Positions 51,101 to 63,746 of a stretch of 64,000 nucleotides of DNA are shown here, in pieces (within the stretch, counting starts at the first letter, position 1; every line of letters starts with the position of its first letter). The position numbers and the translations under genes were made by a program. The stretch is taken from assembly GCF_002278035.1 (NCBI RefSeq), contig NZ_CP022603.1:248001-312000 (forward strand), written 5' to 3'. The DNA is from Ochrobactrum quorumnocens (GTDB lineage: Bacteria > Pseudomonadota > Alphaproteobacteria > Rhizobiales > Rhizobiaceae). The notes beneath the pieces were generated by a model that had not been told where the DNA came from, searched no databases, and saw only the letters and a list, made by a program, of their open reading frames with translations.

Positions 51101-51859
51101 TCAGAGATAGTAAATGCCAATACGATTGCCGCCAATCATTTCGACGGCAATCTCCATCTCGTAAATATCGCGCAAAATATCCGGGTGAATGATTTCTTCC
51201 GGTGACCCTTGATGAACGACCTTGCCCTTGCGCATGGCAACGATATGGTTGGAATAGCAGGACGCGAAATTGATGTCGTGCAGGACCAGTACGACTGTTT
51301 TCCCAAGTTCGTCTGCTGCACGCCGCAACAGTTTCATCATTGAAGCTGAATGCTTCATATCGAGATTGTTGAGCGGTTCATCAAGCAGGACGTAATCTGT
51401 ATTCTGGCAGAGAACCATCGCTACGAAGGCGCGTTGACGCTGCCCGCCTGATAGTTCGTCCAGAAAGCGTTCCCCCAGTTCTTCAAGCCCGAGATAGCCG
51501 ATTGCCTGTTCAACGTGATTGAAGTCTTCGTGCGTTGGCCGCCCTTTGGAATGCGGGTAGCGCCCAAACGTCACCAGATCGCGCACGGTCAGGCGTGAAT
51601 TGATCGCGTTCTCTTGCCTTAAGATCGAAAGGCGTTTTGCCAGCACATCGCCCGGCGTGGTTGAAACATCCAGCCCATCTACAGTGACACGGCCTTCATC
51701 CATTGGCAGCAGGCGACTGACCATCGAAAGCAAAGTCGATTTTCCAGCGCCATTTGGCCCGATGATCGAGGTAATGCCACGCGCTGGCAATTTGAGCGTG
51801 ACATCATCGACAACGATTGCATCGCTATAGGATTTGCTGACTTTGTTTATTTCGATCAA
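51101..51859 (-). CDS. Siderophore ABC transporter ATP-binding protein
   Basis: 252 residues of the FepC/YclP/FatE type. Walker A GPNGAGKST, signature LSGGQRQR, Walker B VLLDEPLNNLD (the NNLDMK form is typical of this subgroup) and switch VLHDINFA are intact. It overlaps the permease stop as ATGA. It is the last gene of the siderophore locus (receptor, esterase, binding protein, two permeases, ATPase). Confidence 0.92.
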   Translation of the reverse strand: MIEINKVSKSYSDAIVVDDVTLKLPARGITSIIGPNGAGKSTLLSMVSRLLPMDEGRVTVDGLDVSTTPGDVLAKRLSILRQENAINSRLTVRDLVTFGRYPHSKGRPTHEDFNHVEQAIGYLGLEELGERFLDELSGGQRQRAFVAMVLCQNTDYVLLDEPLNNLDMKHSASMMKLLRRAADELGKTVVLVLHDINFASCYSNHIVAMRKGKVVHQGSPEEIIHPDILRDIYEMEIAVEMIGGNRIGIYYL

Positions 51860-52809
51860 CGTGCGTTCCCCCTGACGAGAAGGATAATAAAGACGAGCCC
51901 GCCCAGAAACTCGATGATGACACTGAGCGCGGTGTTGAATGAGAAAACGCGCTCAAGAATGGTTTGACCGCCGACAATACAAAGGATTGCCAGCAAGACG
52001 GCGACGGGCAACACGACGCGGTGCTTTGACGAACCAGCAATCATGTAAGCGAGATTGGCGACCAACAGGCCGAAGAAGGTTATCGGCCCAACAAGGGCAG
52101 TCGATACGGAAACAAGGATCGTAACGATCAGCAGAATGCGGTGCACAACTCGACGATGATCGACGCCCAGATTGATGGCTGGGTCGCGGCCAAGTGCCAG
52201 AATGTCGAACATATTGAGAAAGCGCAGACCGTAAACTGTGACTATCGCCACAATGATTGCCGCAAGAAGCAGAATATCCGCATTAACACTGTTGAAGCTT
52301 GCAAAGAAGCGGTCCTGAAGTACGGCGAATTCGTTCGGGTCGATCATCCTCTGCATGAGGTTCGACAGGCTTCGGAAAAAGACACCAAAGACAATCCCGA
52401 CAAGCATGACGAGATGCAGGCTGCGAGCAGCGCCCGAAAACAGCCATGCATAGAGCGTGCTGGCAAAAACCACCATAATGGCGGTTTCGGCAAAGAAACG
52501 CGCATTGGGTCCGATCCCGTTCACATGGATGGCACCAACTGCAAAGACTGCAAGTGTCTGGATCAAAATATAAAGTGCATCAAACCCCATGATCGAGGGT
52601 GTGAGGATGCGGTTATTTGTGACTGTCTGGAACAGTACCGTCGAGACCGCAATCGAATAGGCAACAAGCACCATTGCCGCAAGCTTGGTGCCTCGAAAGC
52701 TTAAGATGAAAGACCAACTACCTTTTGCACCCAGCGTCATGAAGGCGATGCAGGAAGCAATAACAAGGATTGCAAGAAGCGCGATGATTATGCCGGGACG
52801 TTTAAGCAA
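51856..52809 (-). CDS. Siderophore ABC transporter permease (YclO/FatC type)
   Basis: About 317 residues with multiple helices of the FecCD family. Characteristic segments are TNNRILTPSIMGFDALYILI, GRDPAINLGVDHRRVVHRIL and VGPITFFGLLVANLAYMIAG. The likely start is the TTG at 52809, which overlaps the upstream permease stop by 8 bases and has GGGGA upstream; the frame is open to 52851. Together with the next permease it forms the channel for a ferric siderophore. Confidence 0.9.
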   Translation of the reverse strand: MLKRPGIIIALLAILVIASCIAFMTLGAKGSWSFILSFRGTKLAAMVLVAYSIAVSTVLFQTVTNNRILTPSIMGFDALYILIQTLAVFAVGAIHVNGIGPNARFFAETAIMVVFASTLYAWLFSGAARSLHLVMLVGIVFGVFFRSLSNLMQRMIDPNEFAVLQDRFFASFNSVNADILLLAAIIVAIVTVYGLRFLNMFDILALGRDPAINLGVDHRRVVHRILLIVTILVSVSTALVGPITFFGLLVANLAYMIAGSSKHRVVLPVAVLLAILCIVGGQTILERVFSFNTALSVIIEFLGGLVFIILLVRGNAR

Positions 52810-53764
52810 GGCGTGATCCCCGGCGCAAAAGCAGATAGAGGAAGATCGCACTGCCGACGACGCCCATCATGGTACCGATGGGGATTTCATAAGGAAAGCG
52901 GACCAGGCGCCCGACGATATCGCAGGCAAGTACAAGACCCGCACCCAGCACAGCCACCCATGGCACGGAACGGCGCATGTTATCGCCAATGAACATGCTC
53001 ACCACATTGGGCACGATAAGCCCCAGAAACGGGATCATGCCTACTGTTACAACCACACAGGCGCTGACCATTGAAACGATCACAAGCCCCAGTGTTACGA
53101 CGCGGCGATAGTTTAGGCCGAGGTTGGTTGTGAAATCCTCGCCCATACCGGCAACCGTGAACCGGTCAGCCGCGATATAGGCAATGACGGTCAGGAAAAA
53201 CGACAACCACAGCAATTCGTAGCGCCCCCGCAAGACACCGGAGAAGTCTCCCGTTGCCCATGAATTTAGGGCTTGAAGCAGATCATAACGATAGGCAATG
53301 AAGGTCGTCACGGCACTGATCACACCACCCAGCATGATGCCGACAAGCGGCACTACGAGAACCGAACGAAGCGGAATACTACGCAGAATGCGTAGGAAAA
53401 GGGCTGTGCCTGCGAGAGCAGTGACAGATGCTACCAACATCTTGCCGAAGACCGGGGTGTCGGATGCAAATAGAATAACCAACAGAATGCCGAGGCTCGC
53501 AGATTCAACTGTGCCAGCAGTTGATGGCTCGACAAAACGATTGCGGGTGAGCATCTGCATGATCATGCCCGCCACGGCCATCGACATGCCGGCAAGAATG
53601 ATTGCAAGCGTACGCGGTATGCGGCTGATCAAAAGAACTTCGGTCGCCCGATCGGTGCTATTTGCACCAAACAGTGTGCTGAGCGATACATCGCTGACGC
53701 CGATAAACAGGCTGATAAAAGCCAGTATGACGACAACAATTATAGCCGCGGCGAGTGCCTTCAC
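52802..53764 (-). CDS. Siderophore ABC transporter permease (YclN/FatD type)
   Basis: About 320 residues of the FecCD family, with SRIPRTLAIILAGMSMAVAG (typical) and MIMQMLTRNRFVEPSTAGTV. Later GMIPFLGLIVPNVVSMFIG is the conserved loop that meets the ATPase. The start is probably the GTG at 53764; the frame is open to 53851, but that part runs into the repeat element. The gene lies 178 bp behind the binding-protein gene, with a repeat copy in between. Confidence 0.88.
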   Translation of the reverse strand: MKALAAAIIVVVILAFISLFIGVSDVSLSTLFGANSTDRATEVLLISRIPRTLAIILAGMSMAVAGMIMQMLTRNRFVEPSTAGTVESASLGILLVILFASDTPVFGKMLVASVTALAGTALFLRILRSIPLRSVLVVPLVGIMLGGVISAVTTFIAYRYDLLQALNSWATGDFSGVLRGRYELLWLSFFLTVIAYIAADRFTVAGMGEDFTTNLGLNYRRVVTLGLVIVSMVSACVVVTVGMIPFLGLIVPNVVSMFIGDNMRRSVPWVAVLGAGLVLACDIVGRLVRFPYEIPIGTMMGVVGSAIFLYLLLRRGSRLA

Positions 53765-53845
53765 GCTTAATTCCCGTTCTCTTGCCTTGTCATGAAATCG
53801 GGCCACAAATTGTGCGGCCCGAAATGACTGGGTCAGAAGATATTG

Positions 53846-53941
53846 GAGCACCTTTTGATCTGATTACATCAGATCGCGCTCTAATGGTTTGTTTCAATGC
53901 GCATCTTGTCCGAAAATCGGTTCCCTCTTTTCGGGATGCGC
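53846..53941. repeat. Dispersed palindromic repeat, copy 4 (two-hairpin form)
   Basis: Hairpin 1: GAGC (53846) ... GATCTGAT (53857-53864) and ATCAGATC (53868-53875) ... GCTC (53878-53881). Hairpin 2: GCGCATC (53899-53905), CCGAAAA (53910-53916), TTTTCGG (53928-53934), GATGCGC (53935-53941). It ends one base from the stop of the siderophore-binding protein gene. It is the fullest copy in the window. Confidence 0.85.
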
Positions 53942-53942
53942 T

Positions 53943-54872
53943 TTATTTCGTTTTGTCAAAAGCTTCCGAAAGCTGCCGGATTGTGCTGTGCAGCGCACCA
54001 AGGCCACCGCCGACGAGATACCAGTTCTGCGCATTCAGATAGACGACCTGATCTTTCTTCCAGGCGTTGGTCTGACGCACGAGTTCATTGTCGAGCAATT
54101 GCTTGGCAGATGTGCCTTCACGACCGATTGCCGCGTCGCGATCCAGTACGAAAAGCCAATCCGGATTGGTTTCCAGAATGAATTCCGAGCTGATTGGCTG
54201 GCCATGATTGCCAACGGAAAGGTCAGGGGCTGCTGGCTCGACACCAAAGCTGTCATGCAGCACGCCAAAACGCGAGCCGGGGCCGTAGGCGCTGATCTTG
54301 CCGCCAGACGTCAGGACCATCAGGCCTTTGCCTTTACCCTTGGCCTTGTCTTTCAGCGCTGCGAGTTCGCTGTTGAGCTTTTCAACTTCGGCCTTAGCTT
54401 CCGTCTCCTTGGAGAAAATCTGGCCAAGCTTTTCGACATTGGCTTCGGTGCCGGAAATAAATTCCTTGGCAGGGACGGTTAGGTCGATTGTCGGGGCAAT
54501 TTTCGCGAGTTCACCATATTTCGCGGCCGAGCGACCACCTACGATGATGAGGTCGGGTTCTGCGGCATTGACGGCTTCGTAATCTGGCTCAAACAGCGTG
54601 CCGACTTTGGCGTAATCAGCACTGTCATATTTCTTGAGATACTCTGGGAAAGCGATGCTGCCGGGAACGCCAATGATCTTAACTCCCAGACGGTCAAGGT
54701 TGTCGAGCGTCGCAAAATCGAACACAACGACTTTCTCAGGATTTGTCGCAATGGTCGTTTCGCCTTGCGCATGTTTGACAGAGACGTCAGCGGCGTTAGC
54801 GCCGGAGGCAAGCGCTGCGACAACAAGTGCTGCGCCGCATAGACGGGAAAAGTGTTGGCTGAATTTCAGCAT
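53943..54872 (-). CDS. Ferric siderophore-binding protein (YclQ/CeuE/FatB type)
   Basis: About 309 residues. A signal peptide (LCGAALVVAALASGANA) without a lipobox cysteine suggests a soluble periplasmic protein. It belongs to the FepB/CeuE helical-backbone family: VVVFDFATLDNLDRLG, EPDLIIVGGRSAAKYGEL and NPDWLFVLDRDAAIG are typical of YclQ/CeuE. The start at 54872 follows GAAAGGA; the frame is open to 54893. Relatives bind catecholate siderophores or their breakdown products. Confidence 0.88.
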   Translation of the reverse strand: MLKFSQHFSRLCGAALVVAALASGANAADVSVKHAQGETTIATNPEKVVVFDFATLDNLDRLGVKIIGVPGSIAFPEYLKKYDSADYAKVGTLFEPDYEAVNAAEPDLIIVGGRSAAKYGELAKIAPTIDLTVPAKEFISGTEANVEKLGQIFSKETEAKAEVEKLNSELAALKDKAKGKGKGLMVLTSGGKISAYGPGSRFGVLHDSFGVEPAAPDLSVGNHGQPISSEFILETNPDWLFVLDRDAAIGREGTSAKQLLDNELVRQTNAWKKDQVVYLNAQNWYLVGGGLGALHSTIRQLSEAFDKTK

Positions 54873-54945
54873 GGCGTTCAATCCTTTCGTCAATCTTGTG
54901 CTTTATAGTCCAGTTTTGCTCCAGTCAAAGCCGGAAGATGGTAAT

Positions 54946-55854
54946 TCAGTTGTTTTGTTTGCCTGGCGTCTCATTGAGCAGGATGAACTTCAAACTGTCT
55001 TCAACCGTCAGTGGGATCATCGAGCCGTGGCTTTCATTGTCGAAACGACGATATGCAACCTCAAATCCGGGCAGTTGCTTGAGTTCGGCTTGAATATCCG
55101 CGCCTGATGGGCCACCGCGTAACGTCTTCAGGCGATCTGTTTCTTCTTGCGATTGGCTGGGACGTTCGCCGCGCTTGCCAGAGGATTCGATCAGGAGACG
55201 CAGAGGTTTTGGACCGGCCTTGAAGGCTTTCACAAACTGATCCTTATCGGCCAAAATTGCGCGACCGTTCCACCAGATTGATGGATCACCGGCGCTGTAA
55301 GTCTGGAAAGAATCTGTGTGATTGAACAACGCGTAAAGCGTAAAAAGACCGCCAAGCGAATGGCCGAACAGAGCTTGTTTGGTTGGATCGATTGGAAAGC
55401 GACCTTCAATTTCCGCTTTGACCTGTTGATCTAAAAAGTCGAAAAAGGCATCACGTCCGCCAGTCTTGGGAACATTGAATCGGACTGGGATCAGATCATT
55501 TGGTGTTGGCGGCGTGAGATCGAAATAGCGCAGACGAACAATCTCGTCCTTGTCTTCAGTTGGATAGCCGATGCCTACAAAAACAGCGTTTAGTTTCGGA
55601 TTTTCTTCCATTAACTTTGCAGCAATTGGAAGCATACGATTTCCGTCAGTCATATAGACGACAGGGAAACCATTCGAGGGCGCTTTTTCTGCCGGAGCAG
55701 CAACGAAAATTCGATAGTCGATGCCGTTCGCCTGCATGTCAAAAGAAGCGACTTGCGGCTTTTCTGCCTGCGCGGTTGCATTCACAAGCACGCTTCCGAG
55801 CATGAGACAAACCTTAAAAAAAACGTTCTTTGTTTTGCTCACGAGAGCATCCAT
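54946..55854 (-). CDS. Exported alpha/beta-hydrolase, siderophore-esterase-like (IroE/BesA family)
   Basis: About 302 residues with a signal peptide-like start (FFKVCLMLGSVLVNATAQAE), so it may act in the periplasm as IroE does. The nucleophile elbow is FGHSLGGLF; an Asp and a C-terminal His (ESHGSM) complete the triad. The family (esterase D-type) includes enzymes that cut enterobactin- or bacillibactin-type esters. It stands 46 bp behind the receptor gene and 73 bp ahead of the binding protein gene. Siderophore cleavage is inferred from context. Confidence 0.82.
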   Translation of the reverse strand: MDALVSKTKNVFFKVCLMLGSVLVNATAQAEKPQVASFDMQANGIDYRIFVAAPAEKAPSNGFPVVYMTDGNRMLPIAAKLMEENPKLNAVFVGIGYPTEDKDEIVRLRYFDLTPPTPNDLIPVRFNVPKTGGRDAFFDFLDQQVKAEIEGRFPIDPTKQALFGHSLGGLFTLYALFNHTDSFQTYSAGDPSIWWNGRAILADKDQFVKAFKAGPKPLRLLIESSGKRGERPSQSQEETDRLKTLRGGPSGADIQAELKQLPGFEVAYRRFDNESHGSMIPLTVEDSLKFILLNETPGKQNN

Positions 55855-55900
55855 TTCATAAATAATAACGCCAGCCAAAAGCGGCTGGCGTCATAGAGTG

Positions 55901-58135
55901 TCAGAAGCGCGAGGTCATACCGAGCCAAAGACGACGGCCTTCAACCACGTTATTTGTTTCATCCACAGTGACCTTCTTGTCGAAGATGTTGTAGACGGCA
56001 GCGTTGAGCGTCACGTTCTCACTGAACTCATAAGAACCGCCGAGATCTATAGTGGCATAACCCTTATATTTGCGGGCGATAACCTGACCTTTGCTATTAT
56101 AGGCATAAGGTTCACCGAGGGTGCCGATACGCAGGCCAGCATTGATTTCCGGGCCGTGATAGTTCCCAGCCGCCCATGCAGTCAGACCGTCGACAGGTGT
56201 TTCCCAATCGGCGCGAATGTTTGCCATGTGCTTTGGCGTGCGGGCCAATGGCAGGCCAGCATATTCGCCGGTCTTCTGCTCCGAGTCGGTATAGGTATAG
56301 CTACCGCGAATTTTAATCGTGTCGGTTGCTTCCCAATCCGCCGTCAGTTCCACACCCTGAATGACAGCTTCATCGATGTTATAACTGTAATAGAGGACAT
56401 AGTTTGGATCCTGAGCCCAGCGAAGCGGTTGACCGGTAATCGGGTCGTACTGAATGTTGCTGGCGATCTTGTCCTTGAAGTCGGTGTAGAAATACGTCGC
56501 ACCGAGACGCAGGCCTTGCTGATTGTCCCAAAGGGCACTGGCTTCATAGCTCGTGCTCTTTTCCGGCTGTAGATTTGGATCTCCGATGATTACGCCACAG
56601 TTTCCAGTCGGACCGTAAGTACAATTCCCGCCGCCTGTCGTGTAAGCGTAACCGGGCGCGATCGTGCGAATTTCTGGAGCACGGAAACCGGTTGAGATAC
56701 CGCCCTTAAGGGTCAATTGGTCGGTAGCGTGCCAAACGGCATAGCCACGAGGGCTCCAATGCGAGCCGTAGATTTCGTGGTGATCCATACGTAGACCGCC
56801 AGTCAGGGCGAAGTCAGGCGTCAGCCACCATTCGTCTTCAGCGAAAAGTGCCCACTGCTTGATTGTGAACTGTTCATCCAGACCGGAGCGGTTGCCGGGA
56901 TTCTGGTCTGTCAGTGTGGCGTCAATAAACTGGCCGCCCGTCACGAGCGTATGGTTGCCATAGAGCTCAAACGGCGTTGTGAACTTTCCGTCGAGAGTGG
57001 AGTTGCGGATATGCGGAGAACGCAGGTTCTCGACAAACTCACCTCTTGCGGTGTTCCAGTTGTAGTTCGTTCTTTGAGCCGTTTCCTGCATGAAAGAGAA
57101 TTCTGAAGTCGTTGGGCCCCAACGGCCTGTGTGGCTGATCGACCAATGATTACGGTCATTGTAGTTATAGGAGTCGAGTGGTGCTGTGCTGCCCGTTGCT
57201 ACAGGATTGATCGTATTGCCAACAGTCGAATCGCGGCGCAAATTTGCGCGACCGGCTTCAAACTGAATGTCATGATCAGCGTTCGGCGTGATCGTGACGC
57301 GACCGGTGATATCGATATCGCGTTGCTCAGGCGTGCCACTGATGATGCTGTCTTCCTGACGCTTAAGACCGCGACCCCAAAGCTGTACACCAACCAGATT
57401 CGGTACGAGAGGCCCGGTCATATAGTAAGAACCCTGAGCCGAATTGCCGAACTTCGAGTGCTGCTGCACCGTGGTGTCGAAGCTCAGCGAGCCGCTCCAC
57501 TTGTCTGAAACTTTCTTGGTGATGACGTTGATGACGCCGCCCATTGCATCGGAACCATAAAGCGATGACATCGGACCGCGAATAACTTCGATGCGCTCAA
57601 TCGCATTGGCTGGCGGCAGGAAGCTCTGTTCAAAACCGGAATTGCCATTGGTGCGGGCATCACGTGTGCTCTGACGCTTTCCGTCAACCAGAATGAGCGT
57701 ATAGCTACCGGGTAGGCCACGGATGAAAATATCGCGTTCGGCAGCCGCACCAGTGACGGCGACGCCCTGTACATCGCGCAAAGCATCGCCCAGATCGCGA
57801 TAAGAACCTTTTTCGAGTTCTTCACCCGGTACAACCGAAATGCTTGCAGGCGCGTCAGTAATGTTCTGTTCGAACCCCGTTGCAGACACCACGATCTGAT
57901 TGAGCTTGATGCCGCCATCGGCGCTTACTTGTTCTGCGGCTTGCGCTTCAGCCTGTTTCTTTTTCGCGGCTTGGTCCTCTACTGAGGTTGTCTGTGCAAA
58001 AGAAACCGTCCCACTCAGAATGAGTGCAGTCGAAAGGCATGTACCCGCAAGAATGGCTTTTGCGAAAAGCGATTTGCTGGCCAATTGCCTGTTCTGCGTC
58101 CCATGAGCGCGCAATCCCCGAAACAAGCTGGTCAT
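55901..58135 (-). CDS. cirA: TonB-dependent receptor, CirA-like
   Basis: About 744 residues: signal peptide ending in SFAQ, TonB box near QIVVSATG, plug domain (RDIFIRGLPGSYTLILVDGK, then IERIEVIRGPMSSLYGSDAM and GGVINVITKK) and a 22-strand barrel that ends in LWLGMTSRF with the terminal Phe. Long stretches match the catecholate/colicin I receptor CirA as I remember it (SSLYGSDA, DGKFTTP, EDEWWLTP, DHHEIYGSHWSPRGY, EGRRL). A catecholate siderophore is the likely cargo. The start at 58135 follows AAGGGTG. It is divergent from the HTH-TrpD2 fusion gene. Confidence 0.92.
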   Translation of the reverse strand: MTSLFRGLRAHGTQNRQLASKSLFAKAILAGTCLSTALILSGTVSFAQTTSVEDQAAKKKQAEAQAAEQVSADGGIKLNQIVVSATGFEQNITDAPASISVVPGEELEKGSYRDLGDALRDVQGVAVTGAAAERDIFIRGLPGSYTLILVDGKRQSTRDARTNGNSGFEQSFLPPANAIERIEVIRGPMSSLYGSDAMGGVINVITKKVSDKWSGSLSFDTTVQQHSKFGNSAQGSYYMTGPLVPNLVGVQLWGRGLKRQEDSIISGTPEQRDIDITGRVTITPNADHDIQFEAGRANLRRDSTVGNTINPVATGSTAPLDSYNYNDRNHWSISHTGRWGPTTSEFSFMQETAQRTNYNWNTARGEFVENLRSPHIRNSTLDGKFTTPFELYGNHTLVTGGQFIDATLTDQNPGNRSGLDEQFTIKQWALFAEDEWWLTPDFALTGGLRMDHHEIYGSHWSPRGYAVWHATDQLTLKGGISTGFRAPEIRTIAPGYAYTTGGGNCTYGPTGNCGVIIGDPNLQPEKSTSYEASALWDNQQGLRLGATYFYTDFKDKIASNIQYDPITGQPLRWAQDPNYVLYYSYNIDEAVIQGVELTADWEATDTIKIRGSYTYTDSEQKTGEYAGLPLARTPKHMANIRADWETPVDGLTAWAAGNYHGPEINAGLRIGTLGEPYAYNSKGQVIARKYKGYATIDLGGSYEFSENVTLNAAVYNIFDKKVTVDETNNVVEGRRLWLGMTSRF

Positions 58136-58257
58136 AAATGTCACCCTTAAAGTTGAGTTTTCCGCTCTCCTTATGTATGGCAACAAGATGACGTCAACGA
58201 TCATCTTTTATAACGATTCTAAGTTTCGTAAAACGCAACTGAACGGATGAAGCAGCA

Positions 58258-59727
58258 ATGTCTGGCAAGCGCATGAAATCACAGACGGAGGCGGGCATTG
58301 TGGATGGCGAAAGCCAGAAACTCGGCCAATTACGCCTGTTGATTGCGCTTGATGCACTTCTTGTGGAAGGAAGCGTCGGAGGTGCTGCCAAGCAGATGGG
58401 ATTGAGTATGGCCGCCATGAGCCGGTTGCTCGGACAGATACGCGAGAAGTTTGACGATCCTATTTTCATTCGTTCTGGACGCAACATGATCGCCACTCCC
58501 AAAGCAGAAGCTTTACGCGGGCGCTTGCGACGTTTGGCAAATGAAGCTGAAGCGCTGATGAATTTCGATGGCAATGATGCGTCGCAAGCTCATTGCAACA
58601 ACAGACATGGTTGGGCACGCACGAGCGCCATTGCGGCTCCCCCGCCGCTCGGAATCCGGAGAGTCGTGAAACTTGAAAATCACCCAACACCGGAACAGCT
58701 CGCGGCACAGTTCGCCAATATTCAGGATGAACACGATCCTGCGCGACGACTGGCAAAATACATAGCAATCACCGGGCGAAAGGTTGGCTATACGCGCCCG
58801 TTGGAAATGCATGAAGCGGAAGATGCCTTTAATACGATATTTGCAGGAGAGGCAGATCCCATGCAAATCAGTGCGTTGTTACGTCTAATTCATTATCGTG
58901 GTGAAACGGCACCTGAACTTGCAGGCATGACACAGGCAGCGCGTAAATATTGCTCAACAAAAGCGAATATCCGCTTACCAGCACTTGATTGGCCTGCCTA
59001 TCTCTCACCGAACTCCCATCAAGCGCCGTGGTTCATGCTGGCAGCAATCCTTGTCGCTCGAGCTGGCTATCCAGTAGCACTTCACGGCAACTGCGGTATG
59101 GGAGATCTTTCAGGTAAGCTTGAGCTGGCCGCTGAAGCTCTCAACATGCCGATTACCGGCTCGCTCACGCTGGCAGAAAGTGCGTTGAAAGCGCATGGCA
59201 TCTGCTTCATGCCGGTGGCCGGTTTCGCACCGCAGGTTCATGCGTTGCTCGCGCTCTATCCACTTTTTGATTCACGATCCTCTATTAACAGTCTGGCGCA
59301 TCTGCTCAATCCGATGGGACTGTCAGCCTCTTTCCTTGGTGTGACGCAGCCTGCCTACCGTGAATTGCATCGCGATGCTGGAGCCTTACTCGACTGGCCC
59401 TCTGTTTCGGTCGTCTCGACAAGTCGCGATGTGGCTGAGCTGGTGCCACACCACGCACATAGCATCCACAGATGGTTTGGTGGTCAAAAATCAGAACTGA
59501 CATTACCCACTCTGTCGAAGGCAGTGACTGACAAACATGCAAGCCTGACGACTTTTGAATACTGGCTCGCTGTCTGGTCTGGTGCTGCGGCCGATGAACG
59601 AGCCGAGCTGACGGTCATCGCTTCAACCGCCATGGCGCTGATGACGGTGCTCGCAGCCGATAATGACAGCTATGGCCAATTCCATAAAAAGGCTGAGGAG
59701 CTTTGGAAGGAACGCCACCAGAACTGA
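58258..59727 (+). CDS. LysR-type HTH fused to a TrpD2/YbiB-like domain
   Basis: 489 residues. Residues 22-85 are a LysR-family helix-turn-helix (LRLLIALDALLVEGSVGGAA, KQMGLSMAAMSRLLGQIREK, ending FIRSGRNMIATPKAEA). There is no LysR sensor domain. After a linker (86-135), residues ~136-485 match the anthranilate phosphoribosyltransferase-like TrpD2/YbiB fold: DWPAYLSPNSHQAPWFMLAA, YPVALHGNCGMGDLSGKLEL with HGN at 276-278, and a late helical part. YbiB of E. coli binds nucleic acid and lacks TrpD activity. Here a DNA-binding head is joined to it. It is divergent from the CirA-like receptor. Confidence 0.85.
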   Translation: MSGKRMKSQTEAGIVDGESQKLGQLRLLIALDALLVEGSVGGAAKQMGLSMAAMSRLLGQIREKFDDPIFIRSGRNMIATPKAEALRGRLRRLANEAEALMNFDGNDASQAHCNNRHGWARTSAIAAPPPLGIRRVVKLENHPTPEQLAAQFANIQDEHDPARRLAKYIAITGRKVGYTRPLEMHEAEDAFNTIFAGEADPMQISALLRLIHYRGETAPELAGMTQAARKYCSTKANIRLPALDWPAYLSPNSHQAPWFMLAAILVARAGYPVALHGNCGMGDLSGKLELAAEALNMPITGSLTLAESALKAHGICFMPVAGFAPQVHALLALYPLFDSRSSINSLAHLLNPMGLSASFLGVTQPAYRELHRDAGALLDWPSVSVVSTSRDVAELVPHHAHSIHRWFGGQKSELTLPTLSKAVTDKHASLTTFEYWLAVWSGAAADERAELTVIASTAMALMTVLAADNDSYGQFHKKAEELWKERHQN

Positions 59728-59901
59728 TTATTGGAGTTTTGTGATCAATTTTTAAGCAGGCGTCGAAAACTATTCTACTTATGCTGTTTTAGGGAAAAGC
59801 ATTCCGGTTACAGATTAAGAACAGCAAGTCGATGCTTTGTTTGATATTTTTATAAGCCCTATCGTTCCGCCGTAACTCATAATAGGCAGCGGGGCGATTT
59901 G

Positions 59902-61077
59902 ATGGTCAATCCAATATTTGGTGCAACAGGCACGTCCATTTTTGAATCCATGTCGCGCCTTGCAGCTGAAACTGGATCAATTAATCTCGGACAAGGGTTT
60001 CCAGAAGGCTTTGAGCCGCAGGAGCTGGTTGAAGCCGCAATTCATGCATTGCGTGATGGCCCTCATCAATATCCACCGATGCTCGGAATTCCATCTTTGC
60101 GCAAAGCAGTGGCGGAAAATGCGCGCCGGTTTCTCGGATTGGATATAGATTGGGAGTCAGAGGTTCTTGTCACCTCCGGTGCAACGGAAGCGCTGACCGA
60201 TACCTTTCTTGCGCTGCTCGACCACGACGATGAAGTCATCGTCTTTGAGCCCGCTTATGATGCCTATGCAACGCTTATTCGCCGTGCAGGCGGCAAGGTC
60301 GTGCCACTTCGCCTGACGCCGCCACACTGGGAATTACCGCGTGAGGCGCTGGAAAAAGCTATCACATCAAAGACAAAGCTGATTGTCATCAACACGCCGA
60401 TGAACCCGATTGGCAAGATTTTTGATCCTGAAGAATTGAAATTTCTGGCCTCCCTTGCGATCAAGCATGATCTGACGATTGTGTCCGACGAGGTCTATGA
60501 ACATTTGATCTTCGACGGAAGGCCGTTTTACTCGCTCTTTGCGGTGCCTGATATCCGAGATCGCGTTGTGCGGATCGGCTCCGCTGGAAAAAGCTTTTCA
60601 GTAACGGGCTGGAAAGTTGGCTATGTGACAGCTTCCGCAAAACTTCTCGCGCCGATTGCCCGCGCTCATCAATACGTGACCTTTACCACTCCGCCTGCCT
60701 TGCAAGCCGCTGTGACTGTCGGTCTTTCTTTGCCTGACAGTTATTTCATCAATCTGCGTGAGGCGCTGGCAGCGCGCCGTGATCTGTTGCTCAGCGGTTT
60801 GCGGGGCGCGGGTTTTGAGATTGCGGATGCTCCGGCAACCTATTTTGCCGTCGCCGATATCAGCGCGCTTGATCCGGATGGCGATGATCTTGCCTTCAGC
60901 CGCCGTCTAACGCTTGAGGCAGGCGTGACGCCGGTACCGGTTTCATCTTTCTACGGCGAGCGTGATGTCAAAAGCCATGTCCGTTTCTGCTTTGCTAAGA
61001 AGCAAGAAACCCTTTCAAAAGCTGTCGAACGGCTTGGTCAGTGGTCAGCAAAACAAAACTGGCGCGCGGCTTCCTAA
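59902..61077 (+). CDS. PLP-dependent aminotransferase, class I (YbdL/kynurenine aminotransferase-like)
   Basis: 391 residues, fold type I. The PLP lysine is in IGSAGKSFSVTGWKVGY, with NTPMNPIGK and VSDEVYEHL supplying cofactor contacts and VRFCFAKK near the end. It resembles YbdL, a methionine aminotransferase, and mammalian kynurenine aminotransferase. The ATG at 59902 follows GGGG by eight bases. Its neighbours, a MetQNI-like importer, point to methionine or an analogue as substrate. A repeat copy begins two bases after its stop. Confidence 0.88.
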   Translation: MVNPIFGATGTSIFESMSRLAAETGSINLGQGFPEGFEPQELVEAAIHALRDGPHQYPPMLGIPSLRKAVAENARRFLGLDIDWESEVLVTSGATEALTDTFLALLDHDDEVIVFEPAYDAYATLIRRAGGKVVPLRLTPPHWELPREALEKAITSKTKLIVINTPMNPIGKIFDPEELKFLASLAIKHDLTIVSDEVYEHLIFDGRPFYSLFAVPDIRDRVVRIGSAGKSFSVTGWKVGYVTASAKLLAPIARAHQYVTFTTPPALQAAVTVGLSLPDSYFINLREALAARRDLLLSGLRGAGFEIADAPATYFAVADISALDPDGDDLAFSRRLTLEAGVTPVPVSSFYGERDVKSHVRFCFAKKQETLSKAVERLGQWSAKQNWRAAS

Positions 61078-61078
61078 A

Positions 61079-61126
61079 GTATGTCTCCCAAAAGTGGATG
61101 CCGGTTTTGGGATAAAGACATGCGTA
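61079..61126. repeat. Dispersed palindromic repeat, copy 5 (inverted orientation)
   Basis: Read on the minus strand: GCATGTCTTTAT, CCCAAAACCGGCATCCACTT, TTGGGAGACATAC. The inner arms are CCCAAAA and TTTTGGG. It differs at only a few positions from copy 3 (39586-39630). It fills most of the gap between the aminotransferase and metQ genes. Confidence 0.75.
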
Positions 61127-61176
61127 AAAACAACCGCTTAAGAAACGGCCAAAAAATCATTTCGAGGAACATTTGC

Positions 61177-61974
61177 ATGAAATATACCCCTTTCATTCGT
61201 GGCGCTCTATCAGCGGTCTTGCTTTCTATGCTGGCAGCATCGCCTGCGTTGGCCGAAAAAATACGCCTCGGTGTCACGTCCGGTCCGCATGCCCAGATTG
61301 CCGAAGCTCTGACGCCGATCGCGAAAGCCAAGGGGCTTCAGATCGAAATTGTTGAGTTTTCCGATGGCGCGATGATCGATCCGGCTACGAATGATGGCGA
61401 TCTGGATGCCAACGGCTTTCAGCATACGCCTTATCTTAATCAGCAAAACAAGGATCGCGGACTTAATCTCGTAGCGGTTGGCGGCAACACCGTTTTGCTG
61501 CCGATGGCGGGTTATTCGCATAAGTTCAAGACGCTCGAAGATCTGCCGGAAGGTGCACAGATCACAATCCCTAATGATCCAAGCAATGCTGGGCGCGCGC
61601 TGAAACTGCTTGAAAAGAGCGGTGTTCTCAAGCTTACACCCGGCGTGGCATTCAATGCCACAGAGCTCGACATTGTTGAGAACCCGAAGAAAGTAAAAAT
61701 CATTCCAATGGAAACCGCCCAGCTTGCTCGTTCATTGGAAGATGTCGATTTTTCGGTAATCACATCTCACTTCGCGCTGAGCGCCGGTCTAGTTCCAAGC
61801 CGCGACGCAATCCTGATTGAAGACCAACTGTCCGACTATTTCTGCCTCATCGCCGTTGCGGAAAAGAACAAGGATGCGCCATGGGTCAAGACCTTGATCG
61901 AATCCTACAAGTCGCCAGAAGTCAAAGCCTTTATCGAACAGAAGTTCGAAGGCAATATCATTGCGGGATGGTGA
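61177..61974 (+). CDS. metQ: MetQ/NlpA-family substrate-binding protein
   Basis: 265 residues with a signal peptide (LSAVLLSMLAASPALAEK) ending in ALA, and no lipobox cysteine, so it is a soluble periplasmic protein, not a lipoprotein like E. coli MetQ. IRLGVTSGPHAQIAEAL, FQHTPYLNQQNKDRG and NDPSNAGRALKLLEKSG are family marks. The start at 61177 follows GAGGA; the longer frame from 61081 is in the repeat. It heads metQ-metN-metI. D/L-methionine or a related compound is the expected ligand. Confidence 0.9.
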   Translation: MKYTPFIRGALSAVLLSMLAASPALAEKIRLGVTSGPHAQIAEALTPIAKAKGLQIEIVEFSDGAMIDPATNDGDLDANGFQHTPYLNQQNKDRGLNLVAVGGNTVLLPMAGYSHKFKTLEDLPEGAQITIPNDPSNAGRALKLLEKSGVLKLTPGVAFNATELDIVENPKKVKIIPMETAQLARSLEDVDFSVITSHFALSAGLVPSRDAILIEDQLSDYFCLIAVAEKNKDAPWVKTLIESYKSPEVKAFIEQKFEGNIIAGW

Positions 61975-61975
61975 G

Positions 61976-63064
61976 ATGAACCTTTCGGTTCGCATAGCTA
62001 AAACAGCACGGAGCCAGGTCGGCTCCGTACCGCCGATCATTGAGGTTAAGTCACTGACCAAGACCTATGATCCGAAAGCTGGCGCGGTTTTAGACGACGT
62101 TTCGTTGCAGGTCGGCAAAGGATCTATACACGGTATCATTGGTCGTTCAGGCGCTGGTAAAAGCACGCTGGTACGATGCCTTAATGGTCTTGTGCAGCCA
62201 ACAAGAGGTGATGTTTTCGTCGCTGGACGTCAGGTGAGCCAACTGGACAGTCGTGAACTGCGACAGGCTCGTCGCGATATATCCATGATATTCCAACACT
62301 TTAGCCTTCTTTCCTCTCGAAGTGCTGCAGCTAATATAGCTCTCCCTATGGAATTGGCTGGAGTCCCGCGCGAAAGCATCCGCAAGCGCGTTTCTGAACT
62401 GCTTGATCTGGTAGGGCTGGATGGAAAGGCCGATGCTTATCCGTCCGAGTTGTCTGGCGGGCAGAAACAGCGTGTGGGCATTGCACGTGCTTTGGCGTTG
62501 GAGCCAAGTGTCCTTTTATCAGACGAGGCTACGTCTGCGCTTGACCCTGAAACAACCGAACAAATTTTGGGACTTCTCAAGGATATCAATCGTCGTCTTG
62601 GCCTGAGCATCGTTTTGATAACCCACGAGATGGATGTGGTGCGCCAGATTGCGGATCATGTGACAGTACTCGAGGGGGGACGCGTGGTTGAGAGCGGCCC
62701 GACATTTGATGTTTTCGCTTTTCCAAAATCGACCATCGCACGGTCGTTTCTCTCGAGCATCGTAGCGCATGATCTGCCGCCTGAAGTTGCGCAAAAACTG
62801 ATGCCAGAAGCAGTTCCCGGATCGAACCCTGTATTGCGGATTATCTTTTCGGGGGAGGCTGCCCATTCACCGGTGGTGGCAACACTTGTTCAGCGCTTTG
62901 GTATCAAACCAAATATCTTGCATGGGCGCATCGATTATATCGGCGGAAAGCCGCTCGGAATCATGACGCTGATCGCTGAAAACGGCGAGCCTGATCTTGC
63001 TGACGTCCTCGCATATCTTACTTCGCTCGATCTGCATGGAGAGGTGCTCGGCCATGTTGTCTGA
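61976..63064 (+). CDS. metN: Methionine-type ABC transporter ATP-binding protein
   Basis: 362 residues. Walker A GRSGAGKST, Q-loop MIFQHFSLLSSR, signature LSGGQKQR, Walker B VLLSDEATSALDPE and switch THEMDVVR are intact. The C-terminal ~90 residues are a NIL-type regulatory domain (PVLRIIFSGEAAHSPVVATL), which in E. coli senses internal methionine and stops transport. It starts one base after the metQ stop and overlaps the metI start by 11 bases. A short Lys/Arg-bearing leader precedes the ATPase core. Confidence 0.92.
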   Translation: MNLSVRIAKTARSQVGSVPPIIEVKSLTKTYDPKAGAVLDDVSLQVGKGSIHGIIGRSGAGKSTLVRCLNGLVQPTRGDVFVAGRQVSQLDSRELRQARRDISMIFQHFSLLSSRSAAANIALPMELAGVPRESIRKRVSELLDLVGLDGKADAYPSELSGGQKQRVGIARALALEPSVLLSDEATSALDPETTEQILGLLKDINRRLGLSIVLITHEMDVVRQIADHVTVLEGGRVVESGPTFDVFAFPKSTIARSFLSSIVAHDLPPEVAQKLMPEAVPGSNPVLRIIFSGEAAHSPVVATLVQRFGIKPNILHGRIDYIGGKPLGIMTLIAENGEPDLADVLAYLTSLDLHGEVLGHVV

Positions 63065-63746
63065 TCTGCTTTCACCTGCGCTTGTCAACCTGCTGCTGGA
63101 GTCACTCAAGCAGACGATCATGATGGTGGCTGCTTCCGCAATTCTCTCGACCCTGATCGGCTTGCCGCTCGGCATCGCGTTGGTTGTGACCGCTCCAGGA
63201 CAGTTCCTTGAGCGACCAGTTTTCAACCGCATTGCGGGCACTATCGTCAATTTGGTGCGGTCCACGCCTTTCATCATTCTGATGGTGGCAATCATTCCGT
63301 TTACCCGTCTTGTGGCAGGCACGACGGTCGGCACTTACGCGGCAATCGTGCCACTGACAGTTGCAATCATTCCGCTCTATGCGCGCCTTGCTGAGACCGC
63401 AATGCGTGAGGTAGATCAAAGTCTTATAGAAGCTGCTGAAAGTATGGGTGCAACGCCGTTACAGATCATATTCAAGGTTCTTCTGCCCGAGGCTTTACCT
63501 GGAATTATCGCAGGCCAGACTGTCACGCTGGTGAGCCTTGTCGGTTATTCAGCAATGGCGGGAACAGTTGGCGGTGGCGGTCTTGGCGATCTTGGTATCC
63601 GCTTTGGTTACCAGCGTTTTATGCCAGAAGTGATGATCGCCGTTGTGATCATTCTTGTTGCCATCGTTCAGTCCATTCAAGTTACGGGCGATTATGCCGC
63701 CCGGGTCGTCAATCATCGCATAGCGCGCAGCCGCCGCTCACGCTGA
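63054..63746 (+). CDS. metI: Methionine-type ABC transporter permease
   Basis: 230 residues with five to six predicted helices, normal for MetI. Family segments: NLVRSTPFIILMVAIIPFTR, the EAA loop EAAESMGATPLQIIFKVLLP and GYSAMAGTVGGGGLGDLGIR. The ATG at 63054 overlaps metN by 11 bases and has GAGAGG upstream; the longer frame to 62997 is rejected. It completes the MetNI2 core. Confidence 0.93.
   Translation: MLSDLLSPALVNLLLESLKQTIMMVAASAILSTLIGLPLGIALVVTAPGQFLERPVFNRIAGTIVNLVRSTPFIILMVAIIPFTRLVAGTTVGTYAAIVPLTVAIIPLYARLAETAMREVDQSLIEAAESMGATPLQIIFKVLLPEALPGIIAGQTVTLVSLVGYSAMAGTVGGGGLGDLGIRFGYQRFMPEVMIAVVIILVAIVQSIQVTGDYAARVVNHRIARSRRSR

Follow-up and report, generated by a model that had tools for sequence, protein, structure and literature searches.

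The closest described counterparts of the gene analyzed here are regulators with a LysR-type DNA-binding head and proteins with the fold of TrpD, the anthranilate phosphoribosyltransferase (PRTase). ModE carries a LysR-type head on a non-LysR sensor, the molybdate-binding TOBE domains, and contains no PRTase fold. IrgB, an ordinary LysR-type transcriptional regulator (LTTR) with the usual effector domain, is encoded divergently from its receptor gene and activates an enterobactin receptor. In a 64,000-nucleotide stretch of the Ochrobactrum quorumnocens genome (positions 248,001 to 312,000 of contig NZ_CP022603.1; hereafter, the window), a single gene joins a LysR-type winged helix to a TrpD/YbiB-fold domain. 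This fusion protein is likely a one-component transcription factor of ferric-siderophore uptake, in which the LysR head would bind a conserved dyad, acting together with the iron regulator Irr, and the TrpD-fold domain would serve as the sensor. It resembles ModE in placing a LysR-type head on a sensor other than the LysR effector domain but has a PRTase fold instead of TOBE domains; similarly, a TrpD fold stands where IrgB has its effector domain.

The IrgB-IrgA system of Vibrio cholerae, as presented in PMC7600106, offers a functional parallel, in which a catecholate TonB receptor has a regulator of its own in addition to a general iron regulator. However, the iron-regulator site of the fusion locus is of the Irr type, whereas that of IrgB-IrgA is a Fur site. 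According to PMC10123104, YbiB is a stand-alone protein with basic grooves that binds nucleic acids, seemingly irrespective of their sequence, and it is encoded in a LexA-regulated operon. The fusion differs from it by the LysR-type head and, in the window protein, by having no Arg at the position of YbiB Arg92. The nearest relatives of the fused domain are the stand-alone proteins of the NF006564/PRK09071 family, which contain no helix-turn-helix (HTH) in the matched part, keep a GGGGExE motif, and are encoded among siroheme and sulfur genes. No description of the fusion was found in the literature searched, which left out most subscription journals; a first-pass annotation, made from the sequence alone, had likewise known of no characterized case.

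Domain architecture and spread of the fusion

The gene and its parts are as follows.
58258..59727, plus strand: fusion gene, LysR-type winged helix plus TrpD/YbiB-fold domain, 489 amino acids
58330..58509, plus strand: HTH_1 (LysR winged helix, Pfam PF00126), residues 25-84, found in 62 of 62 aligned proteins
58498..58560, plus strand: predicted linker helix, residues 81-101 (AlphaFold2/DSSP)
58567..58725, plus strand: inter-domain linker of low confidence (pLDDT), about residues 104-156
58723..59724, plus strand: TrpD/YbiB-fold domain, about residues 156-489

In a Pfam profile search, the head matched PF00126 with 44.3 bits over residues 25-84, close to the LysR-type HTH that the first-pass annotation had placed at residues 22-85. 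The window protein gave no hit to the LysR effector-binding domain at E≤1, and the TrpD fold occupies its place, which agrees with the earlier proposal that a TrpD2-like fold had replaced the normal sensor. The window protein scored 415.7 bits with NF006564 (PRK09071), for which the curated cut-off is 257 bits. Relatives were represented by 80 of the 86 confirmed ones, so that locus counts refer to these 80 and the window (81 in total). The protein alignment A2 comprised the window protein and 61 of the 80, the other 19 having been dropped for near-identity, truncation, two frames, or a stop at the given coordinates (L122). Both HTH_1 and Glycos_trans_3N were matched in all 62 proteins, as expected of the proposed one-chain regulator, and the LysR effector domain was absent from the families found in them at E≤0.001. 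The family has a LysR head and a LysR-type box but neither the LysR effector domain nor the TrpD catalytic motifs. Public annotation nevertheless names these proteins “glycosyl transferase family protein” without mention of the LysR head (NZ_CP119567, NZ_CP048525, NZ_CP132313, and other plasmid records).

The fusion was found in one frame in 31 of the 34 same-genus genomes; the exceptions were G001, with two pieces in different frames, G013, with a fragment, and G026, with no match. The genera among the relatives listed include Brucella/Ochrobactrum, Pseudochrobactrum, Agrobacterium, Rhizobium, Ensifer, Microvirga, Pannonibacter, Chelativorans, Thalassospira, and Insolitispirillum. The first-pass annotation had allowed for a frameshift or an assembly join between two separate genes. 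Despite the two frames seen in G001, such an artefact is next to impossible and can be set aside, given the single frame in 31 of the same-genus genomes and in many further genera and the match of both parts in every aligned protein. The suggested count of the fusion across Rhizobiales gave at least 6 carriers (G151, G300, G333, G335, G358, and G405) in an even sample of 396 other-genus genomes of the order, 28 of which matched over the TrpD2-like domain only (E≤1e-20). Among 397 other genomes of the phylum, at least 2 had the fusion, both already included in the order count, and 60 matched the TrpD2-like domain only. In both samples the best three candidates per genome were scored, so that some fusions may have been missed. 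The fusion also matched 51 plasmid records, 42 of them with 80% or more of the protein covered.

In a tree of 31 of the 62 fused domains and the domains from 30 of the 40 stand-alone loci (the sets also used for the fused versus stand-alone comparisons below), the fused domains formed one clade with support of 100/100, so that a single fusion event is the simplest reading; long branches were flagged in this tree, including the single TrpD row and L183.

Divergent siderophore-uptake genes

In the window, a set of siderophore-uptake genes reads away from the fusion gene in the following order.
55901..58135, minus strand: TonB-dependent receptor, nearest to catecholate receptors; open reading frame open to 58204, likely start codon 58133-58135
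54946..55878, minus strand: putative esterase (PF00756)
53943..54893, minus strand: siderophore-type periplasmic binding protein (PF01497; nearest NCBIfam family SstD, below cut-off)
52802..53851, minus strand: FecCD permease
51856..52851, minus strand: FecCD permease
51101..51859, minus strand: ATPase of an ATP-binding cassette (ABC) transporter

The receptor is nearest to PRK13483, PRK13513, IreA, and CirA-type receptors, with all matches below cut-off. The fusion gene is divergent from an uptake gene in 80 of the 81 loci. This gene encodes a TonB receptor in 63 loci and, in the other 17, a siderophore-type binding protein; the remaining locus, L139, ends before the neighbor gene. Here, divergent means an opposite-strand tblastn match that ends no more than 1.2 kb upstream of the LysR head, so that an intervening gene is possible. 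Public annotation of three plasmid loci is concordant, with a receptor or an iron-chelate importer beside the “glycosyl transferase family protein”; a fourth plasmid record carries no annotation.

Two controls were examined for this association. Among ordinary LTTRs with the nearest heads, none of the 7 resolved loci had a receptor or binding protein labeled within three genes, although this control is small (12 stretches, of which 5 gave no head match and two of the 7 resolved ones are near-duplicates). For the stand-alone domain, 1 of the 30 resolved loci (of 40), L183, had a TonB gene within five genes.

Conserved intergenic DNA

The DNA between the receptor and the fusion gene (58136-58257) contains several conserved elements.
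58224..58238, plus strand: LTTR-type dyad TTTCGTAAAACGCAA, candidate operator of the fusion protein, one mismatch to the consensus TTGC-N7-GCAA
58208..58222, plus strand: Irr-type iron box TTATAACGATTCTAA, one mismatch to TTAGAA-N3-TTCTAA
58189..58203, plus strand: TGA-N9-TCA, RirA (IRO)-type palindrome TGACGTCAACGATCA, overlapping the putative -35 element
58193..58198, minus strand: putative -35 element TTGACG of the receptor promoter, within the conserved GGTCAACG block
58170..58175, minus strand: putative -10 element CATAAG of the receptor promoter
58150..58157, no strand assigned: conserved block AA(C/G)TTGAG between the putative promoter and the receptor start

After redundancy filtering, 41 of the 81 upstream regions were retained (L167, whose head was wrongly placed, was removed from this set but kept in the counts over 81). 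These regions share a near-constant layout, AA(C/G)TTGAG ... TTATGTA ... GGTCAACG ... TTTTAGAAnnnTTCTAA ... cGCAA. Against a background of 50 dinucleotide shuffles, TTAGAA-N3-TTCTAA was present with no more than one mismatch in 18 of the 41 regions (shuffle mean, 0.04), with no more than two in 28 (0.32), and with no more than three in 38 (3.9). The dyad TTGC-N7-GCAA was found in 12 of the 41 (0.54) and in none at any other spacing from 3 to 11, and TGA-N9-TCA was found in 11 (2.8). The AA(C/G)TTGAG block fits its strict pattern in 22 of the 41 regions, at a near-constant position. Several same-genus relatives carry a fuller palindrome, TGACG-N5-CGTCA, where the window has TGA-N9-TCA (58189-58203).

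In the genome of the window, the TTAGAA palindrome with no more than one mismatch occurs at 12 places, including the window's own; the reversed-pattern control gives an equal number, so the palindrome is not enriched genome-wide. It precedes a bacterioferritin operon and genes for RirA, for an EfeU/FTR1 permease, and for the iron exporter MbfA. It also adjoins a TonB receptor/AraC pair; five other places have no evident iron gene. The sequence TTAGAA-N3-TTCTAA is the consensus of the Irr box. This palindrome is read as an Irr box because it precedes iron genes and because Irr, in a Brucella species, binds and represses the promoters of rirA and of the iron transporter gene ftrA, as reported in PMC10374146; Irr binding at 58208-58222 is predicted. 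Elsewhere in the same genome, at L210 and L214, two Irr-type boxes lie 26 bases apart from start to start, with bacterioferritin genes on one side and a TonB receptor gene on the other.

The dyad begins 16 nucleotides from the start of the iron box. In this register, it has one mismatch of eight in the window, no more than one in 42 of the 81 loci, and no more than two in 59, and its right arm is exact in 62. At the boxes of the bacterioferritin, EfeU/FTR1, MbfA, and RirA genes, by contrast, the dyad is absent, with 4 to 7 of 8 mismatches in register; the TonB/AraC-pair box has 5 of 8, and all 11 other places have 3 to 8 in both orientations. Being kept at the fusion loci and missing at the other iron boxes, the dyad tracks the fusion gene and not the iron box.

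A similar site recurs at a distance from the fusion gene. Second sites were sought with a held-out matrix built only from 21 receptor-divergent loci (taken from the 31 of 33 anchored regions that an earlier matrix had used), with a score limit of 15 that was chosen post hoc, after the scan with the earlier matrix. Such a site was found in 14 of the 17 loci where the fusion gene is divergent from a binding-protein gene, and 13 of these 14 lie directly before a TonB receptor gene, in the same orientation. The 63 receptor-divergent loci yielded one second site, which does not precede a receptor. Allowing for the near-duplicates L157/L159/L164, L146/L148, and L160/L162, the second sites amount to eight or nine independent cases. 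Of the 16 second sites that were written out, 15 precede a TonB gene. The Irr box of these 16 has 0 to 3 mismatches; the dyad matches exactly and in register in L143, L146, L148, L156, L166, and L169, and the remaining sites have a looser one. The link to siderophore uptake, initially proposed from the divergent position next to a receptor gene and an esterase gene, is supported by a divergent receptor or binding protein in nearly all loci and by operator-like DNA that is shared among the loci and also precedes separated receptors.

These data bear on an alternative in which Irr, RirA, or some other iron regulator is the only reader of the conserved sites and the fusion gene merely co-travels with the uptake cassette. 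The Irr-type box is indeed nearly universal upstream of the fusion and is also found at other iron genes, and TGA-N9-TCA occurs more often than in shuffles. However, the in-register dyad is missing at four iron genes and at the TonB/AraC pair of this genome, accompanies the fusion in different genera, and has an exact match at six of the 16 second sites away from the gene; its spacing is also what a LysR-type head would read, TGC-N7-GCA fitting the T-N11-A box of LTTRs that is often found near -65 (PMC8407307). This alternative is therefore improbable, and Irr as the sole reader of the conserved DNA was rejected on account of the same four iron genes.

On the putative receptor promoter, with a spacer of 17, the Irr box is centered near -52 and the dyad at about -68. 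If that promoter is correctly placed, the dyad would lie near the usual LTTR recognition site.

Active-site loops of the TrpD-fold domain

Three segments of the domain align with functional residues of TrpD.
58996..59010, plus strand: Ala247-Tyr-Leu-Ser250-Pro251 (AYLSP), aligned with GTGGD of TrpD; Tyr248 in 61 of 62 proteins, Ser250 in 62, Pro251 in 55
59275..59277, plus strand: Arg340, aligned with the anthranilate-carboxylate Arg of TrpD; 62 of 62
59425..59439, plus strand: Arg390-Asp391-x-Ala393-Glu394, TrpD metal-binding loop; Arg390 in 62 of 62, Asp391 in 58

Alignment with TrpD and YbiB showed that GTGGD, the phosphoribosyl pyrophosphate (PRPP) motif of TrpD, is gone, with AYLSP in its place; a TrpD fold without the PRPP motif is a feature shared with TrpD2 (YbiB). 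At position 393, which holds the metal-binding Asp of TrpD, Ala is found in 59 of the 62 proteins, and position 394 is occupied by Glu in 36 and by Gln in 26. The invariant Ser250 is Ala in the stand-alone relatives, which have GGGGExE at the metal loop, whereas the fused rows have x-x-R-D-x-A-E/Q. The old active-site loops are strongly conserved with new residues, which points to a remodeled pocket and not to decay. With the PRPP and metal motifs lost and new residues fixed in the same two loops, the domain most likely serves as a sensor rather than an enzyme.

A working glycosyl- or phosphoribosyltransferase with an accessory HTH might be expected from the TrpD fold and because NF006564 and the plasmid records both use the name “glycosyl transferase family protein.” It is nonetheless very improbable, since GTGGD is absent, the metal-binding Asp is almost always Ala, and either Glu or Gln is found at the position of the metal-binding Glu; an active PRTase was rejected for the loss of these motifs. 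With GTGGD and the metal-binding Asp gone, the phosphorylated (PRPP-like) ligand suggested in the first-pass annotation finds no support. The first guess for a ligand, tentative and rather doubtful, is an aromatic acid such as benzoate, or a catechol, that is set free from the siderophore after its import. Such a siderophore-derived compound would suit the pocket because this is the former anthranilate site, and a catechol cue fits the neighbors, namely, the catecholate-like receptor and the SstD-like binding protein (both below cut-off) and the esterase of the Brucella group.

Alternatively, the protein could regulate the uptake genes with its TrpD-fold domain acting as a dimerization or protein-docking module, or as a DNA contact, with no small molecule involved. 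The profile of the A2 family scores YbiB top among solved structures (61.7 bits), and the YbiB dimer is described, in PMC10123104, as binding nucleic acid and ObgE (tail docking) through its basic grooves; moreover, Lys or Arg occupies the YbiB Arg92 position of a hand alignment in 33 of the 62 proteins. In the window protein, however, this position is Asn252 (Asn in 24 of 62), the YbiB Arg123 stretch is gapped in the alignment, and the net charge of the domain, which is not a measure of groove charge, is -3, with a mean of +0.5 for 31 fused rows and -4.7 for the stand-alone ones. Together with the newly fixed residues of the old active-site loops, which suggest a pocket, this makes a domain that binds no ligand unlikely. 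The domain is not basic by net charge, and a nonspecific nucleic-acid binder like YbiB was considered less likely.

Predicted mode of regulation

In the model favored here, a sensor-regulator of uptake genes, the LysR-type winged helix would bind TTGC-N7-GCAA beside the Irr box, upstream of the promoter of the divergent gene, be it that of the receptor or of the binding protein. Most likely, that promoter would be activated when low iron, signaled through Irr, coincides with occupancy of the C-terminal TrpD-fold domain by a ligand. The protein probably acts as an activator, as both sites lie upstream of the putative -35 element. The architecture, the single clade, the conserved neighbors, the composite site that recurs at separated receptor genes, and the loss of the catalytic motifs are computed results; DNA binding, activation over repression, joint control with Irr, and the presence and kind of a ligand are what we infer. 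That the fusion represents a new family of transcription factors, in which a retired fold of the anthranilate-PRTase type is the sensor of a LysR head, reads a siderophore-derived aromatic compound, and forms an AND gate with Irr, is a realistic possibility, although the odds lean against this full version.

Several observations weigh against the favored model. Many of the 81 loci are close kin, so their counts are not independent events and the 41 non-redundant upstream regions are the fairer sample. The site beside the fusion scores below 15 in 7 of the 63 receptor-divergent loci and in 4 of the 17 binding-protein-divergent ones, and the low-scoring sites include those of Pseudochrobactrum L114, L115, L116, and L118 (3.6), despite a divergent receptor. 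The left arm of the window's own dyad is imperfect, and no second copy was found in its own genome, where the 8 other matches have two mismatches and are no more numerous than with the reversed pattern; a wider regulon in that genome was sought with this single pattern and none was found. A strict-rule promoter scan of 58080-58300 detected no sigma-70 match, so the placement of the -35 and -10 elements of the receptor is conjectural. Activation involving Irr has to be set against the report, in PMC10374146, of Irr as a repressor at the rirA and iron-transporter promoters. Finally, Arg340 is common to TrpD, YbiB, and 30 of 30 stand-alone relatives, which makes it weak evidence for a catechol-type ligand, and the esterase is labeled beside the fusion mostly in the Brucella group.

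If the model holds, the PRTase-III/TrpD fold would be one more of the folds that bacterial one-component regulators have adopted for ligand sensing, and it would hint at how a TrpD-like scaffold loses catalysis and turns into a switch. A gene of many Alphaproteobacteria, also carried on plasmids, could then be renamed from “glycosyl transferase” to “siderophore-uptake regulator,” with a testable operator, a predicted regulon (the receptor and the ABC importer), and a route to the matching siderophore.

Other genes and relatives

Downstream of the fusion gene in the window, the genes for an aminotransferase, an NlpA-type lipoprotein, and ABC proteins (59899-63746) seem unrelated to it, as they adjoin the fusion in a minority of relatives, all close ones. 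PADLOC gave no defense-system match at E≤0.1.

In the Agrobacterium plasmid pAt1 (L235), a multicopper oxidase gene separates the fusion from the importer genes, while the receptor gene lies downstream. A tannase gene is located about 6 kb from this cassette and may hint at plant phenolics.

Two-thirds of the resolved stand-alone NF006564 relatives (20 of 30; L170-L209) have siroheme or sulfur-relay genes (dsr, tus, cysG, nirB) no more than five genes away, which suggests a role with siroheme enzymes. Their sites include positions between dsrP-like and cobB/dsrN-like genes, next to nirB together with a nitrate-reductase-like gene, and next to cysG or tusB/D/E; the matches to dsrP and to nitrate reductase are below cut-off.
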